The notes beneath the pieces are model-generated. The model had not been told where the DNA came from. It made no database searches and was given only the letters and a program-made list of their open reading frames with translations. The translations under genes and the position numbers were made by a program. From NCBI GenBank assembly GCA_009773355.1, contig WRPG01000010.1:1-64000 (forward strand): a stretch of DNA of 64,000 nt. Reading direction: 5' to 3'. How positions within the stretch are numbered: position 1 is the stretch's first letter; each line of letters opens with the position of its first letter. Origin of the DNA: Limisphaerales bacterium (GTDB lineage: Bacteria; Verrucomicrobiota; Verrucomicrobiia; Limisphaerales; SXTU01). Shown here in pieces: positions 15,790 to 63,538 of the stretch.

Positions 15790-16158
15790 ATGAAATCCGT
15801 CGCCGTCATCGGGGCCTCCACTGACCGCAGCAAGTTCGGCAACAAGGCCGTGCGCGCCTACGCGCAGCGGGGCTTCACCGTCTGGCCGGTCAACCCGAAG
15901 GAGTCGGTCGTCGAGGGTCTGCCCGCGTTCGCGAGCATCGCTGACGTGCCAAGCCGACCCGACCTCGTGAGCGTCTATCTCCCGCCACCCGTCACGCTCA
16001 AGGTGCTCCCCGCCATCGCCGCGAAGGGCTGCGATGAACTCTGGCTCAACCCCGGCACGGAATCGCCCGAAGTGCTCGCGGAAGCGGAGCGGCTGGGGCT
16101 GAACGTGGTTCAGGCGTGCAGCATTGTGGGCATCGGGGTGTCACCGGCGGGGTTGTGA
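15790..16158 (+). CDS. CoA-binding domain protein (YccU-like)
   Basis: The 122-residue protein is a stand-alone CoA-binding Rossmann domain: it starts VAVIGASTDRSKFGN and has the family stretch VNPKES. Such domains resemble the N-terminal part of succinyl-CoA synthetase alpha subunits. They bind CoA, but their role is not established. It follows the MFS gene by 7 bases. Confidence 0.85.
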   Translation: MKSVAVIGASTDRSKFGNKAVRAYAQRGFTVWPVNPKESVVEGLPAFASIADVPSRPDLVSVYLPPPVTLKVLPAIAAKGCDELWLNPGTESPEVLAEAERLGLNVVQACSIVGIGVSPAGL

Positions 16159-16167
16159 GGCGGAACC

Positions 16168-16257
16168 GTAAAACGTAAAACGTAATGCGTAAGAAGACAC
16201 AGTGGGCAGCCGTGAAGGCCGCTGGCTCCCTACGTCGACTTACGTTTTACGTTTTAC
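16168..16257. repeat. Inverted repeat with perfect 18-bp arms, spanning a start codon
   Basis: The arm 16168-16185 is the exact complement of 16240-16257 (TTACGTTTTACGTTTTAC). Related sequence occurs at 50.7 kb (both arms) and 55.19 kb (one arm). The left arm ends on the first base of the ATG of the downstream gene, and the right arm lies in its coding sequence. Confidence 0.9.
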
Positions 16258-17672
16258 GTTTCACGCTCCTCCTCCTCGCCACCCTCGCCTCCGCCCAAGA
16301 CTTCGACCTCGTCCTCGCCAACGGCCGCATCCTCGACCCCGAATCCAAACTCGACGCCATCCGCCACGTCGGCATCCGCGACGGTGTGATTCGCACGGTG
16401 TCGGAGACGCCGTTGCGCGGGCGAACGGTTGTTGATGCCAGCGGCCTCGTCGTCGCGCCCGGCTTCATTGACCTGCACCAGCACGGGCAACAGCCGGAGG
16501 ATTACCACCTCAAGGCGCAGGACGGCGTGACGGCGGCGTTCGAGCTGGAGGTCGGCACGGCGGACGTGGACGCGTGGTATGCCGCGCGCGCGGGCAAGAC
16601 GCTGATTCACCACGGCGTGAGCGTCGGCCACATCCCGTGCCGCATGGCCGCGATGGGCGACCGGCCCGCGTTCCTGCCCGGCGCAAACTCCATGACGGCA
16701 ACCAACCCCGCGAGCGAGGCGCAACTGGCGGACTTGCGCCGGCTCGTCGAGCGCGGCCTCGAACGCGGCGCGGTGGCCGTGGGTTTCGGCATCCAATACA
16801 CGCCCGGCGCGACACAGTGGGAGATTCTGGAGATGTTCCGCGCCGCCGCGAAGTTCCGCGCGGCGTGCTCGGTCCACATCCGCGCGAAGGGCGACACGGG
16901 ACCGCACAATGTCTTCTCGTCCATTGAGGAACTCATCGCCGCCACCGCCGTCACCGGCGCGCCCGCGCACATCTGCCATGTCCAGAGCACCGCGAACCGC
17001 CTCACGCCTCGCGCGCTCGAACTCATCGCCGCCGCCCGCGTGCGCGGTCTCGACGTGAGCGTCGAGTGCTATCCCTACACCGCCGGGATGACGGACATCC
17101 GCTCGGCGATTTTCGACCCCGGCTGGCAGCAGCGCGCAGGCATTGATTTCGCCGACCTGCAATGGCCTGCGACCGGCGAACGGCTAAACGCGGCGAGCTT
17201 CGCGAAGTTCCGGCAGACTGGCGGCATGGTCATCGTCCACTCGAACCCCGAGTCCGTGGTGCGCGACGCCGTGGCGCATCCGCTCACCATGATTGCCAGC
17301 GATGGAATTCGCGGCCACCCGCGCCACGCCGGCGCGAGCGCGCGCATCCTTGGCCGCTACGTCCGCGAGACGCAGGCGCTCACGCTGATGCAGGCGGTCG
17401 AGAAACTTTCACTGATGCCCGCGCGCCGCCTGGAAGAACGCGTCCCGGCCATGAAGAACAAAGGTCGAGTGCGCGTGGGCGCGGATGCGGATCTCGTGGT
17501 CTTCGATGCGACCAAAGTCCGCGACCGCGCGACCTACGAGCAGCCCGACCTGCCGTCGGAAGGCATCCGCGATGTGCTGGTGGGCGGAGTATTCGTGGTG
17601 CGGGACGGCGCGTTACAGCCCGGCGTGCTGCCGGGAAAAGCCGTGCGAGCGCCAGTGTCTGCTGTGAAGTGA
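16185..17672 (+). CDS. Secreted D-aminoacylase / N-acyl-D-amino-acid deacylase-like amidohydrolase
   Basis: The 495-residue protein has an amidohydrolase fold: the N-terminal sandwich DLVLANGRILDPESK, the metal-binding His98-x-His100 in IDLHQHG, AHICHVQS, and the late Asp in MIASDGIRGHPR. The closing motif GADADLVVFD is typical of D-aminoacylases and dihydroorotase relatives. Residues 1-37 hold a signal peptide (VLRFTLLLLATLASAQ), suggesting export. The start codon at 16185 lies at the edge of an inverted repeat, and the hydrophobic stretch of the signal peptide is partly encoded by the other arm. Substrate is unknown. Confidence 0.85.
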   Translation: MRKKTQWAAVKAAGSLRRLTFYVLRFTLLLLATLASAQDFDLVLANGRILDPESKLDAIRHVGIRDGVIRTVSETPLRGRTVVDASGLVVAPGFIDLHQHGQQPEDYHLKAQDGVTAAFELEVGTADVDAWYAARAGKTLIHHGVSVGHIPCRMAAMGDRPAFLPGANSMTATNPASEAQLADLRRLVERGLERGAVAVGFGIQYTPGATQWEILEMFRAAAKFRAACSVHIRAKGDTGPHNVFSSIEELIAATAVTGAPAHICHVQSTANRLTPRALELIAAARVRGLDVSVECYPYTAGMTDIRSAIFDPGWQQRAGIDFADLQWPATGERLNAASFAKFRQTGGMVIVHSNPESVVRDAVAHPLTMIASDGIRGHPRHAGASARILGRYVRETQALTLMQAVEKLSLMPARRLEERVPAMKNKGRVRVGADADLVVFDATKVRDRATYEQPDLPSEGIRDVLVGGVFVVRDGALQPGVLPGKAVRAPVSAVK

Positions 17673-43959: not shown

Positions 43960-43988
43960 GTGGAAGCGGGCTGGTGCCCCCTCTTAAT

Positions 43989-44062
43989 CGTAATCTTAAT
44001 CCTACTCTTAATCCTCGGTCGGAGCGGGGAGGATTAAGAGTAAGAGCAAGATTAAGATTACG
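43989..44062. repeat. AT-rich inverted repeat
   Basis: CGTAATCTTAATCC...TACTCTTAATCCTC (43989-44016) pairs with 44029-44062 if six bases are left unpaired. It is built of CTTAAT/TACTCT units and contrasts with the GC-rich repeats elsewhere. Confidence 0.75.
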
Positions 44063-44130
44063 AGGGTGAAGGGCGAGGTGTAGTGGCGAAGAAGTGGATA
44101 CATTTGCTTCGCGAACTGGCCTGCGTCCCG

Positions 44131-59600: not shown

Positions 59601-60218
59601 GTGCGCATCAAAGCTTGGTTCCCGACGTTCATTTATTGCGCCCCGCTGCTCCGCACGGGTGCAGCGCGGTTCAACGCGGAGCTGATCAAGGAGGCTTACC
59701 AGCTCCGCGACTTCGACCGCGACGGGCAGAAGTGGTCGAAGAAGAATTACCCCGGCGGCTTCACGAGCTACGGCTCGATGGACAAGCTGCACCAGTTCTC
59801 GTCCACGTTCACCGAGCTGCAACGGCGCATTGATCGGCATGTGAAGGCGTTCGCGCGCAAGCTGGACTTCGACCTCACGAACCGCCGGCTGGAGATGACC
59901 GACTGCTGGGTGAACATCATGCCGCGCCAGACCGCGCACGGCCTGCACCTGCACCCGACCTCGACGATCAGCGGCACCTACTACGTGAAAACGCCCAAGG
60001 GTTGCGCGGCGATCAAGTTCGAAGACCCGCGCCTCGATCGCTTCATGGCCGCTCCGCCGCGCAAGGCCGGGGCAAGCCGGGAGAACCAGACCTTCGCCCA
60101 TTACGCGGCGGAGGCGGGCAACGTCATCCTCTTCGAGAGCTGGCTCCGCCATGAAGTCCCGGCAAATCCGGTCGAGGCCGAGCGCGTGAGCGTGAGTTTC
60201 AACTACAACTGGTTTTGA
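59601..60218 (+). CDS. 2-oxoglutarate-Fe(II) oxygenase-like protein (TIGR02466 family)
   Basis: The 205-residue protein (GTG start) begins MRIKAWFPTFIYCAPLL. The iron-binding core looks intact: the HxHxxS-type segment HGLHLHPTSTISGTYYV supplies the first ligands, and FESWLRHEV followed by RVSVSFNYNW supplies the distal His and the Arg for 2-oxoglutarate. Relatives hydroxylate small molecules or peptides; the substrate is unknown. The stop codon is the first base of a 31-bp palindrome arm. Confidence 0.82.
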   Translation: MRIKAWFPTFIYCAPLLRTGAARFNAELIKEAYQLRDFDRDGQKWSKKNYPGGFTSYGSMDKLHQFSSTFTELQRRIDRHVKAFARKLDFDLTNRRLEMTDCWVNIMPRQTAHGLHLHPTSTISGTYYVKTPKGCAAIKFEDPRLDRFMAAPPRKAGASRENQTFAHYAAEAGNVILFESWLRHEVPANPVEAERVSVSFNYNWF

Positions 60219-60370
60219 ACCACGGATGAACACGGATGAACACGGATGTGGCGGCGGTCTGCGACCGCCGTTTGCGCGGACGCCAACGCCGTTCGTCGGC
60301 GGTCACAGACCGCCGCTACAAGGGCTGGGCGCTTTTCCTCATCCGTGTCCATCAGTGTTCATCCGTGGTT
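60218..60370. repeat. Nested palindrome: 31-bp outer and 22-bp inner arms
   Basis: Outer arms 60218-60248 and 60340-60370 match at 29 of 31 (AACCACGGATGAACACGGAT... ). Inner arms 60249-60270 and 60297-60318 match at 20 of 22, each containing the hairpin CGGCGGTC-nnn-GACCGCCG. The whole gap before fdhD is repeat. Confidence 0.9.
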
Positions 60371-61258: not shown

Positions 61259-63538
61259 TTGAACCCGCTGCCCCAACTCCGTTTCCCGTGTCGGCGATTT
61301 GCCAGCGCCGTCCGGGTCGTGCGTCCGTTCGCGGCGGCTTGGCGCGAGGGGCGCTGCGGACGGCGATGGCAAATCGCCGGCACGGCGCTCGCGGTGCTGG
61401 CGCTGTTCTGCGCGACCCCGGCGCTCGCGGCTCCGGCGAAGGCTCCCGCGCCGCGCGCGTTCAATTTCGAGAACGACATCAGCCCGCTGCTCACGCGGCA
61501 CGGCTGCAATGCCTCGCAGTGCCACGGCAAGGCGGAGGGGCAGAACGGCTTCAAGCTCTCCGTCTTCGGCTACGACGCGCTGGCGGACTGGCGGGCGTTC
61601 ACTGCGGAGAGCAAGGGACGGCGCACTTCGTCGGCCGCGCCGGAGCAAAGCCTCTTTCTCGCCAAGGCGAGCGGCACGATGCCGCACCAGGGCGGGGCGC
61701 GCATCCCGGTCGGTTCGCCGGACTACGAAACCATCCGCGCGTGGCTGGCTGCCGGTGCGCCGTTTGGCTCGACGAATGATGCGAAGGTCGTGCGGGTCGA
61801 GCTGGAGCCACGGGAAAAAATCCTCGCGCCGGGCGCGAAGCTCCAGCTCCGGGTGAATGCGTCTTACTCCGACGGGCGCAAGGCGGACGTGACGCGCTAT
61901 TGCGTGTTTCAGTCCAACAATGACTCACTCGCGAAGGTGGACGAGCACGGCGCGGTGGTCATCGGCTCGCTGCCCGGACAAACGTCGGTGATGGCGCGTT
62001 ATCTCGGCGAAGTCACCTCGTTCATGGCCATCGTGCCGCGGCCGGGCAAGCCGGTCGGCAATGCGGGCTTTGCGGAGTTCAACTTCATTGACCGGCACGT
62101 CAACGCGCACTTGAAGAAGCTCAACCTGCGCCCGAGCGACGTGTGCGATGACGCGACGTTCCTGCGCCGCGCGCACCTCGACATCATCGGCACGCTGCCC
62201 ACGGCGGCGGAGGTGCGGCGCTTCCTCGCGGACGAGTCGTCGGACAAGCGCTCGCAGCTCGTGGACGCCTTGCTGAAGCGGCCTGAATTCGCTGACTTCT
62301 GGGCGCTGAAGTGGGCCGACCTGCTGCGCGTGGACCGGCAGAAGCTCGGCCAGCGCGACGCCTATGCCTACTACCGGTGGATTCGCGGGGAGTTCGCCGC
62401 GAACCGTCCGCTTGACCAGTTTGCCCGCGCGCTGCTCACCGCCGAGGGGCCGCTGGACGACGCGCCCGCCGGGCATTTCTACAAGGTCGTGAGCAAGCCC
62501 GGCGAGATGGCGAACGCGGTTTCGCAGGTCTTCCTCGGCATCCGCATCGCGTGTGCGGAATGCCATCACCACCCCTTCGACCGCTGGAGCCAGGCGGACT
62601 ACTACGGCATGTCCGGCTTCTTCTCGCAGGTGAACGTCCGCAAGGGCGCGCTGGGCGAGACGCTGCTGGCGGAGGGCAATCCCGGCGTGAAACACCCGCG
62701 CACCGGCGCGGCGGTGCAGCCTTACGCGCTGGGCACGGAGATGCCCGCCACCGCGCCCGCTGGCGACCGCCGCCGCGTGCTGGCCGAGTGGTTCACCGCG
62801 CCGGAGAATCCGTGGTTCGCGCGCAACCTCGCCAACCGCCTCGTCGCGCATTTCCTCGGGCGCGGCGTCGTCGAGCCGGTGGACGACGTGCGGGCGACCA
62901 ATCCCGCGGGCAACCCCGCGCTGCTCGACGCGGTGGCCAAGTCGCTCGTGGACGCGCGCTTCGACCTCAAGCAGTTCATCCGCACGCTCACGGCCTCGCG
63001 CACCTACCAGCTTTCCGCGACGCCGAACGACACCAACGCGCAGGACGAGCAGAACTACTCGCGCGCCCTCTTCAAGCGCCTGCCCGCCGAGGTGCTGCTT
63101 GACGCCGTGTGCCAGGTGACGGGCGTGCCGGAGAAGTTTGACGGCGTTCCCGCCGGCGCGCGCGCCATCCAGCTCTGGGACAGCCAGACGCAGCATTATT
63201 TCCTCAAGCTCTTTGGCCGCCCCGTGCGCGTGACGGCCTGCGAGTGCGAGCGCAACAGCGGGGCCAGCATCGCGCAGGTGCTGCATCTGCTGAACTCGCC
63301 GAACTTGCAGGCCAAGCTGACCCACGCCGACGGCCAGCTCGCGCGGCTGGCGGCAGCGCACCCGGACAATGCGAAGCTCGCGGACGAGCTTTACCTGACC
63401 TTCTTCAGCCGGCTGCCGAGCGACACCGAGCGGCAACTGGCCGTGAAGCATCTCGCCGCCAGCCCGAACCGCCTGCAGGCCGTCGAAGATTACGCGTGGA
63501 GCCTGTTGAACGCGGTTGAGTTTGTGTTCAACCACTGA
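61259..63538 (+). CDS. DUF1549/DUF1553 protein with CX4CH motif and Big-2-like domain
   Basis: The 759-residue exported protein has a signal peptide ending near ALAAP (about residues 41-60). Next come a haem-like motif CNASQCHG (CX4CH rather than CXXCH), a bacterial Ig-like domain (LAPGAKLQLRVNASYSDGRK), DUF1549 (about 270-480) and DUF1553 (about 500-750, NPWFARNLANRLVAHFLGRG). The TTG at 61259 is uncertain, since the first 40 codons lie in a palindrome and no ATG is near; a GTG inside is possible. No DUF1501 partner is beside it within the window. Confidence 0.85.
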   Translation: MNPLPQLRFPCRRFASAVRVVRPFAAAWREGRCGRRWQIAGTALAVLALFCATPALAAPAKAPAPRAFNFENDISPLLTRHGCNASQCHGKAEGQNGFKLSVFGYDALADWRAFTAESKGRRTSSAAPEQSLFLAKASGTMPHQGGARIPVGSPDYETIRAWLAAGAPFGSTNDAKVVRVELEPREKILAPGAKLQLRVNASYSDGRKADVTRYCVFQSNNDSLAKVDEHGAVVIGSLPGQTSVMARYLGEVTSFMAIVPRPGKPVGNAGFAEFNFIDRHVNAHLKKLNLRPSDVCDDATFLRRAHLDIIGTLPTAAEVRRFLADESSDKRSQLVDALLKRPEFADFWALKWADLLRVDRQKLGQRDAYAYYRWIRGEFAANRPLDQFARALLTAEGPLDDAPAGHFYKVVSKPGEMANAVSQVFLGIRIACAECHHHPFDRWSQADYYGMSGFFSQVNVRKGALGETLLAEGNPGVKHPRTGAAVQPYALGTEMPATAPAGDRRRVLAEWFTAPENPWFARNLANRLVAHFLGRGVVEPVDDVRATNPAGNPALLDAVAKSLVDARFDLKQFIRTLTASRTYQLSATPNDTNAQDEQNYSRALFKRLPAEVLLDAVCQVTGVPEKFDGVPAGARAIQLWDSQTQHYFLKLFGRPVRVTACECERNSGASIAQVLHLLNSPNLQAKLTHADGQLARLAAAHPDNAKLADELYLTFFSRLPSDTERQLAVKHLAASPNRLQAVEDYAWSLLNAVEFVFNH
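61288..61383. repeat. Palindrome over the start region of the second DUF1549 gene
   Basis: Arms 61288-61314 and 61357-61383 match at 25 of 27 (GTGTCGGCGATTTGCCAGCG... ). The family is that of 42646-42714. It encodes CRRFASAVRVVRPFAAAWRE and onward before the signal peptide core. Confidence 0.88.

Follow-up and report, generated by a model that had tools for sequence, protein, structure and literature searches.

Signal peptides are tolerant of sequence, and the origin of new ones is rarely caught in the act. The repeats closest to the one described here are of known kinds: REP sequences and REPINs, heptamer repeats, and palindromes inside proteins. REPINs, or REP doublets (Bertels and Rainey 2011, PMC3116915), are inverted, hairpin-forming pairs of a short dispersed sequence that lie mostly outside genes, occur in hundreds of copies and have spacers less conserved than their arms. 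REPs tagged with GTAG or CGTC have been reported inside open reading frames, most of all in Opitutus terrae, and were proposed as post-transcriptional elements; the N-terminal cases were largely dismissed as extragenic and export signals were not discussed (PMC3733652). Direct repeats of the heptamer TAACTGA are found near start codons in Beggiatoaceae, Cyanobacteria and Bacteroidetes, and their arrays contain stops in one orientation and are open in the other, which was noted as shaping their distribution (MacGregor 2015, PMC4679880). Rickettsia palindromic elements (RPEs; cited in PMC3733652) are palindromic repeats translated in frame in proteins, and in a gene family of Schistosoma japonicum a dispersed signal sequence has repetitive elements on either side, with which its spread has been connected (PMC3434034). 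In the literature searched, no case of a bacterial signal peptide formed from repeats came to light.

Here we describe an inverted repeat across the start of an amidohydrolase gene in a 64,000-nt stretch of DNA from a Limisphaerales bacterium (the window). We consider it likely, from sequence comparison, that this feature belongs to a dispersed, REPIN-like family of elements, of which it is one copy, that the leader of the amidohydrolase starts inside it, and that its right arm makes up the first half of the hydrophobic segment. What appears to be new is the recurrent construction of predicted export signals in which the arms provide stop codons, a start codon and the hydrophobic core.

The family shares with REPINs the inverted hairpin pair, the high-copy and mostly extragenic dispersal, and spacers that are less conserved than the arms. 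Its arms, however, are 7-bp tandem arrays with neither the GTAG tag nor an internal palindrome, and its spacers are wholly unrelated between copies. No RAYT or other transposase flanked by the same repeat was found among the three Y1_Tnp loci of the genome, whose assembly is 95% complete. With no transposase found and arms that are not palindromic, the family behaves like REPINs but departs from that class on two counts. One of the three Y1_Tnp loci, in contrast, is a REPtron (L084; C27, ~209-212 kb), in which a 263-codon, RAYT-like Y1 transposase frame has GTAG-tagged REP dimers, GTAGCTCGACATTCCAATGTCGAG, on both sides; this other family of the genome is exactly a GTAG-type REP dimer with its own RAYT. 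The family also differs from MITEs, whose terminal inverted repeats enclose a conserved interior, since its loops differ completely. With the TAACTGA repeats it has in common tandem 7-bp units by start codons and the stop/open asymmetry, whereas those are direct arrays of another word, have no link to signal peptides and lack the inverted partner present both at this locus and in many further copies. RPEs, in the account cited, have no tie to export signals or start codons. The Schistosoma family is eukaryotic, and there recombination duplicates a signal-bearing segment, the arms not being read as signal.

The inverted repeat spans the start of the amidohydrolase gene

The element sits in the gap between two co-directional genes and runs into the second. 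The features, all on the plus strand, are as follows.

15790..16158, +, upstream gene encoding a CoA_binding_2 protein of 122 aa; its stop lies 26 nt before the ATG, and the neighbour is conserved in genus-mates G006, G009 and G001
16167..16193, +, left arm, CGTAAAACGTAAAACGTAATGCGTAAG, built of 7-bp units; every frame has a stop, the ATG falls within it, and an identical copy is found at C62:60326
16185..16187, +, start codon ATG; aligned ATG in G006
16194..16238, +, loop; encodes the KTQWAAVKAAGSLRR part of the leader, homologous only in G006
16212..16214, +, alternative in-frame start GTG, in the loop; ATG in G006
16239..16265, +, right arm, CTTACGTTTTACGTTTTACGTTTCACG; no stop in any of the three frames; its translation, LTFYVLRFT, is the n/h part of the predicted signal peptide
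16266..16298, +, remainder of the signal peptide, LLLLATLASAQ, non-repeat (heuristic reading)
16299..17672, +, mature amidohydrolase, N-acyl-D-amino-acid deacylase-like (Pfam Amidohydro_3, NF006560, PDB 3gip)

A sequence-only reading of this DNA had described perfect 18-nt arms (16168-16185 and 16240-16257) with the ATG at the end of the left arm and LTFYVLRF encoded by the right. All of this is exact: the arms extend by one outer base pair to 19 nt (16167-16185 and 16240-16258), the A of the ATG (16185) is the final base of the perfect left arm, and 16239-16262 reads CTT ACG TTT TAC GTT TTA CGT TTC, which translates to LTFYVLRF. Allowing mismatches, the arms widen to 27 nt at 89% pairing (16167-16193 and 16239-16265) around a loop of 45 nt.

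The inverted repeat is not a product of chance. Inverted repeats of the same class (arms 18 nt or longer with no less than 85% pairing, and loops not exceeding 100) occur at 150 per Mb in the genome, compared with 0 in 544 kb of a third-order Markov control. When the leader was recoded with random synonymous codons, the longest perfect inverted repeat in 300 draws was 17 nt, against the 19 observed. For RNA spanning the start region, the predicted folding energy is -72.5 kcal/mol (z = -7.7), and none of 200 shuffles was equally stable.

Translation of the amidohydrolase must begin inside the element, because an in-frame TAA lies within the left arm (16176-16178) and the frame has no ATG, GTG or TTG in the right arm or beyond it before codon 68, which falls inside the conserved amidohydrolase domain. 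The available in-frame starts are only the ATG at 16185 and the GTG at 16212, both within the element; the internal start that could have bypassed the repeat, one of the grounds on which the sequence-only reading was open to refutation, is thus lacking over that interval. If a standard start is used, the right arm is translated and encodes LTFYVLRF. Judged by its reading frame, the repeat would then be translated in frame within a real gene, as RPEs are. The predicted leader follows the pattern MRKK..RRLTFYVLRFTLLLLATLASAQ, with a charged n-region, a hydrophobic core and an A-x-A ahead of the mature domain, signal peptides here and below being judged by hydrophobicity and A-x-A heuristics only. 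The conserved part of the protein starts at about residue 36, and its PDB match, 3gip, is an N-acyl-D-glutamate deacylase.

The element belongs to a dispersed heptamer family

Each arm is made up of two 7-bp words, CGTAAAA and CGTAATG, repeated in tandem, and the arms form an inverted pair (the ACGT family). In the window's genome the pattern CGTAAWRCGTAAWRCGTAA matches 99 times, and in each of ten genus-mates between 0 and 12 times; across the order it is present in 13 of 293 genomes. As a control, the reversed pattern gave a single match in the window's genome. Arms are common to the copies, but loops differ completely, that of the window copy included. These data bear out the dispersal implied by an earlier description of the repeat as mobile; an empty ancestral site, or a filled and empty pair, was not found at this locus, and the closest relatives that lack this element have others instead.

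The 27-nt left arm recurs exactly at C62:60326 with its ATG, and the ATG, which comes from the unit CGTAATG, therefore belongs to the repeat and not to the locus, in keeping with the earlier claim that the repeat supplies the start codon. Fifteen dimers of the family were found, nine intergenic and six overlapping a gene end. When ACGT-family dimers were read in all frames, the left arm was blocked in three frames in 15 of 16 and in two frames in the remaining one, the right arm was open in all 16, and an ATG lay within the left arm in 13. Since 7 and 3 have no common factor, a 7-bp array gives one cyclic heptapeptide in all frames: CGTAAAA arrays read in the sense direction have stops in every frame, and their reverse complement gives (TFYVLRF)n or (HYALRIT)n with no stop. 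A gene entered from such an element would thereby be offered an upstream stop, a start codon and a hydrophobic open stretch.

Orthologous leaders carry several unrelated repeats

In G006, the ATG, the frame and the hydrophobic core of the leader are retained. The leaders are 52% identical over residues 1-27 and the mature proteins 88%, while third-position identity is 0.67 in the leader and 0.61 in the mature part; as third positions are equally diverged, the drop in identity indicates that the leader is little constrained as protein. The G006 region has no significant hairpin (z = -0.7), and remnants of the arms are present (GTGAAACTTAATAG/CTTTTACGTTTCAC), which point to decay of the hairpin after the leader was founded. 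A homologue with the same leader and no repeat would have told against the proposal; G006 comes close, with almost no repeat left, but the arm remnants persist. The sequence-only reading had also put the repeat forward as a candidate source of the gene's control region. This part is weak: the hairpin is not conserved as a regulator, because the G006 leader persists without a significant one, and we therefore do not take RNA regulation to be its main function.

Other repeats occupy the same place in other relatives. G009 and G002 have GCGTGTTCCGTG arms and relatives of these, there the ATG falls within the loop and the right arm is part of the coding sequence, and their hairpins are weaker (z = -1.1 and -2.1, respectively). 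A further pair, rich in GC, is found within the leader of G001. In one of the more distant orthologues (L061), a REP dimer lies wholly within the leader with no later start, and its pattern has 166 matches in that genome once mismatches are allowed, an exact search finding only the copy itself. In another (L058), CACGAAAG arrays (53 matches in its genome) directly precede the core, and a GTG within the right arm could also serve as start. By sequence comparison, then, the export signal predicted for this gene is one that several unrelated dispersed repeats have entered. An argument for leader replacement from the gene tree was dropped, the G000-G006 branch having a support of 52-55%.

Two side observations concern these orthologues. 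A GTAG-tagged REP-like sequence supplies the TAG stop of the CoA_binding_2 gene in G009 and G001, and G002 is alike, with ATAG (L043, L045, L046). Orthologues of 70-92% identity (L052, L054, L058) lie in contigs titled as Akkermansia muciniphila and Klebsiella pneumoniae MAGs, which look like mislabelled bins.

Repeats have replaced a leader at a second locus

At L207 (C56):2604-9400, four consecutive genes for exported proteins form one apparent operon, and each leader is built from a different 7-bp repeat family. The gene at C56:3718 was compared across nine genus-mates. In two of them, G009 and G002, the leader is compact and free of repeats; in G009 it has the form MSASGKL..LVRLLAMAATSFAAAAFA, with MSASGKLRGGPLVRLLAMAATSFAAAAFA standing before TNLPP. 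The other seven carry repeat pairs in the leader, of four kinds, none of them the window family. G005 starts at an aligned ATG, and its n-region and core are separated by a CGTGTTCC hairpin. The arms are CAACGTT in G001, of the TTGGAGC type in G003, G004 and G006 (with partial decay in G006) and TTGGTCA in G000 and G008, the left arm also providing the ATG in G000. In G000, G003, G004, G006 and G008 the entire hydrophobic core is encoded by or derived from repeat (for example VIGHWSLVILSSLVIGHWSFAQS in G000), and these repeat-made cores join the same mature N-terminus in frame. At C56:2604, the core is made of TTGGGAT/TTGGAGC words in four species and of TTGGTCA words in four others, and is decayed in G006. 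Direct comparative support thus exists, at C56:3718, for repeats having replaced a predicted export signal, an idea first raised for the amidohydrolase and borne out in another gene of the same genome.

Survey of N-terminal overlaps

We surveyed 2.0 Mb of the genome in stretches partly chosen around family hits, so that densities are approximate, and found 273 REPIN-like hairpins. Other families of the same build fill the genome, some of them GTAG-tagged REP dimers. In the surveyed sequence, 87 hairpins overlapped an N-terminus; most of these overlaps could be escaped by a later ATG, and in such cases the hairpin probably lies just upstream of the true gene. Where no such escape was available, 10 of 11 genes were signal-peptide-like, compared with 409 of 1349 (30%) of all genes (binomial ~5e-5, calculated by hand). 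Genes in this set had to lie 10 or more codons from their next start and to reach a coding score of 3; they were picked by these thresholds and by eye, after the data had been seen, and gene calls and signal peptides came from simple in-house scripts. Left out of it were L110:1466 and L206:13044, which are inserts in or beside domains, and L194:4981, in which a later ATG opens a good signal peptide. The genes confirmed among the unescapable cases encode a sulfatase, BatD, DUF3472 and DUF6298 proteins, and the one exception to the signal-peptide type is YbeY. At L141:12895-13950, an in-frame REP dimer has a prepilin-type N-terminus (PF07963) right behind it, and a further case has a probable Tat leader. 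The excess of lag-7 repeats in leaders is modest (10 of 310, versus 3 of 310 gene interiors).

Arm words differ at fixed sites

Upstream of QueD (L133:7595-7676, C16:42595; orthologues L229-L233), the gap from the upstream stop to the ATG holds, in each of six genus-mates, a hairpin that keeps its geometry. The arm words are CGTAATG in the window's genome and AGTGTTC-like or TAGTGAT-like in five others. At L107:5726 and L131:9074, loops are homologous between species and the arms are of one family, and at L137:10014 the arm words differ between G000 and G006. Such word differences may reflect either new insertions at permissive sites or rewriting in place.

A proposed route and its alternatives

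We propose that, in an ancestor shared with G006, the element either inserted at the start of the amidohydrolase gene or expanded over it, and that it would have displaced the old start and n-region. The new leader would then have been kept by selection for export only, leaving the hairpin dispensable and free to decay, as it appears to have done in G006. By the same process, with other repeat families, the leaders of other exported proteins in the genus may have been rewritten.

A more modest account is that repeats are merely tolerated here: n-regions, being least constrained, would be invaded by intergenic repeats, the repeat would create nothing, and the old core, LLLLATLASA, would do the work as it did before. 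It is a serious possibility, though one that we doubt. The final 11 residues of the leader are indeed non-repeat and align with the core of orthologues, the leader evolves almost without protein constraint, and in most survey cases the element is in the n-region only. Tolerance fits poorly, however, with the cores at C56:3718 and C56:2604, which are wholly repeat in several species, the ancestral-type core being gone; the window gene, moreover, has no start codons available other than those within the element. Another account is a mis-annotated start, in which the true start would lie downstream and the repeat would be an ordinary intergenic element. An ATG just after the hairpin is the usual situation in our survey and was noted for N-terminal REPs (PMC3733652), but here the frame offers no ATG, GTG or TTG between the right arm and codon 68, and we regard this explanation as highly improbable.

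It is also unlikely that the hairpin is a conserved regulatory RNA, acting by sequestration of the start codon or by translational coupling to the upstream gene, with its coding content incidental. The very stable predicted fold with a paired ATG, the upstream stop only 26 nt away, the retention of the QueD hairpin in six genus-mates despite different arm words, and the post-transcriptional role proposed for REPs (PMC3733652) would all suit such an RNA. Against it stand the G006 leader, which has no significant hairpin, and the loops and arm sequences, which are not conserved between species.

The preferred reading, of an element in which the leader starts and whose right arm contributes to the hydrophobic segment, can be carried further in a speculative form that we lean against for now. 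Inverted heptamer pairs might act as portable leader cassettes in this verrucomicrobial group, in which the upstream arm closes all frames and provides the start, the downstream arm is open in every frame and hydrophobic, and insertion founds an export signal at once; in addition, arm words at fixed sites might be exchanged in concert by an undescribed genome-wide process. 

At one gene, the species of a single genus line up in a series from a plain signal peptide, through one with an inserted hairpin, to ones made wholly of repeat, and this provides a testable route from selfish or structural DNA to a working export signal. The comparisons also carry a warning that start-site annotation in repeat-rich genomes can err in both directions.

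Other repeats in the window and genome

REP dimers also occur away from leaders. One lies inside the body of a Glyco_tran_28_C/acetyltransferase protein (L110:1466-1538), and another immediately ahead of the DUF1549 domain in a PSCyt2/PSD1 protein (L206:13044-13141). A partial Y1 transposase match at L083 (C27:165344-165580) shares one open frame of 599 codons with a proline-racemase-like gene, perhaps as a fusion or a decayed insert. Within the window, a hairpin at 61286-61385 encodes the predicted signal-peptide n-region of a DUF1549/DUF1553 protein, whose sole later start is a GTG in the core. The intervals 60218-60370, 43979-44066 and 32221-32361/37355-37495 contain further hairpins, with CACGGATGAA, CTTAATC and REP-like GC-rich arms, and a 141-nt inverted pair ~5 kb apart.
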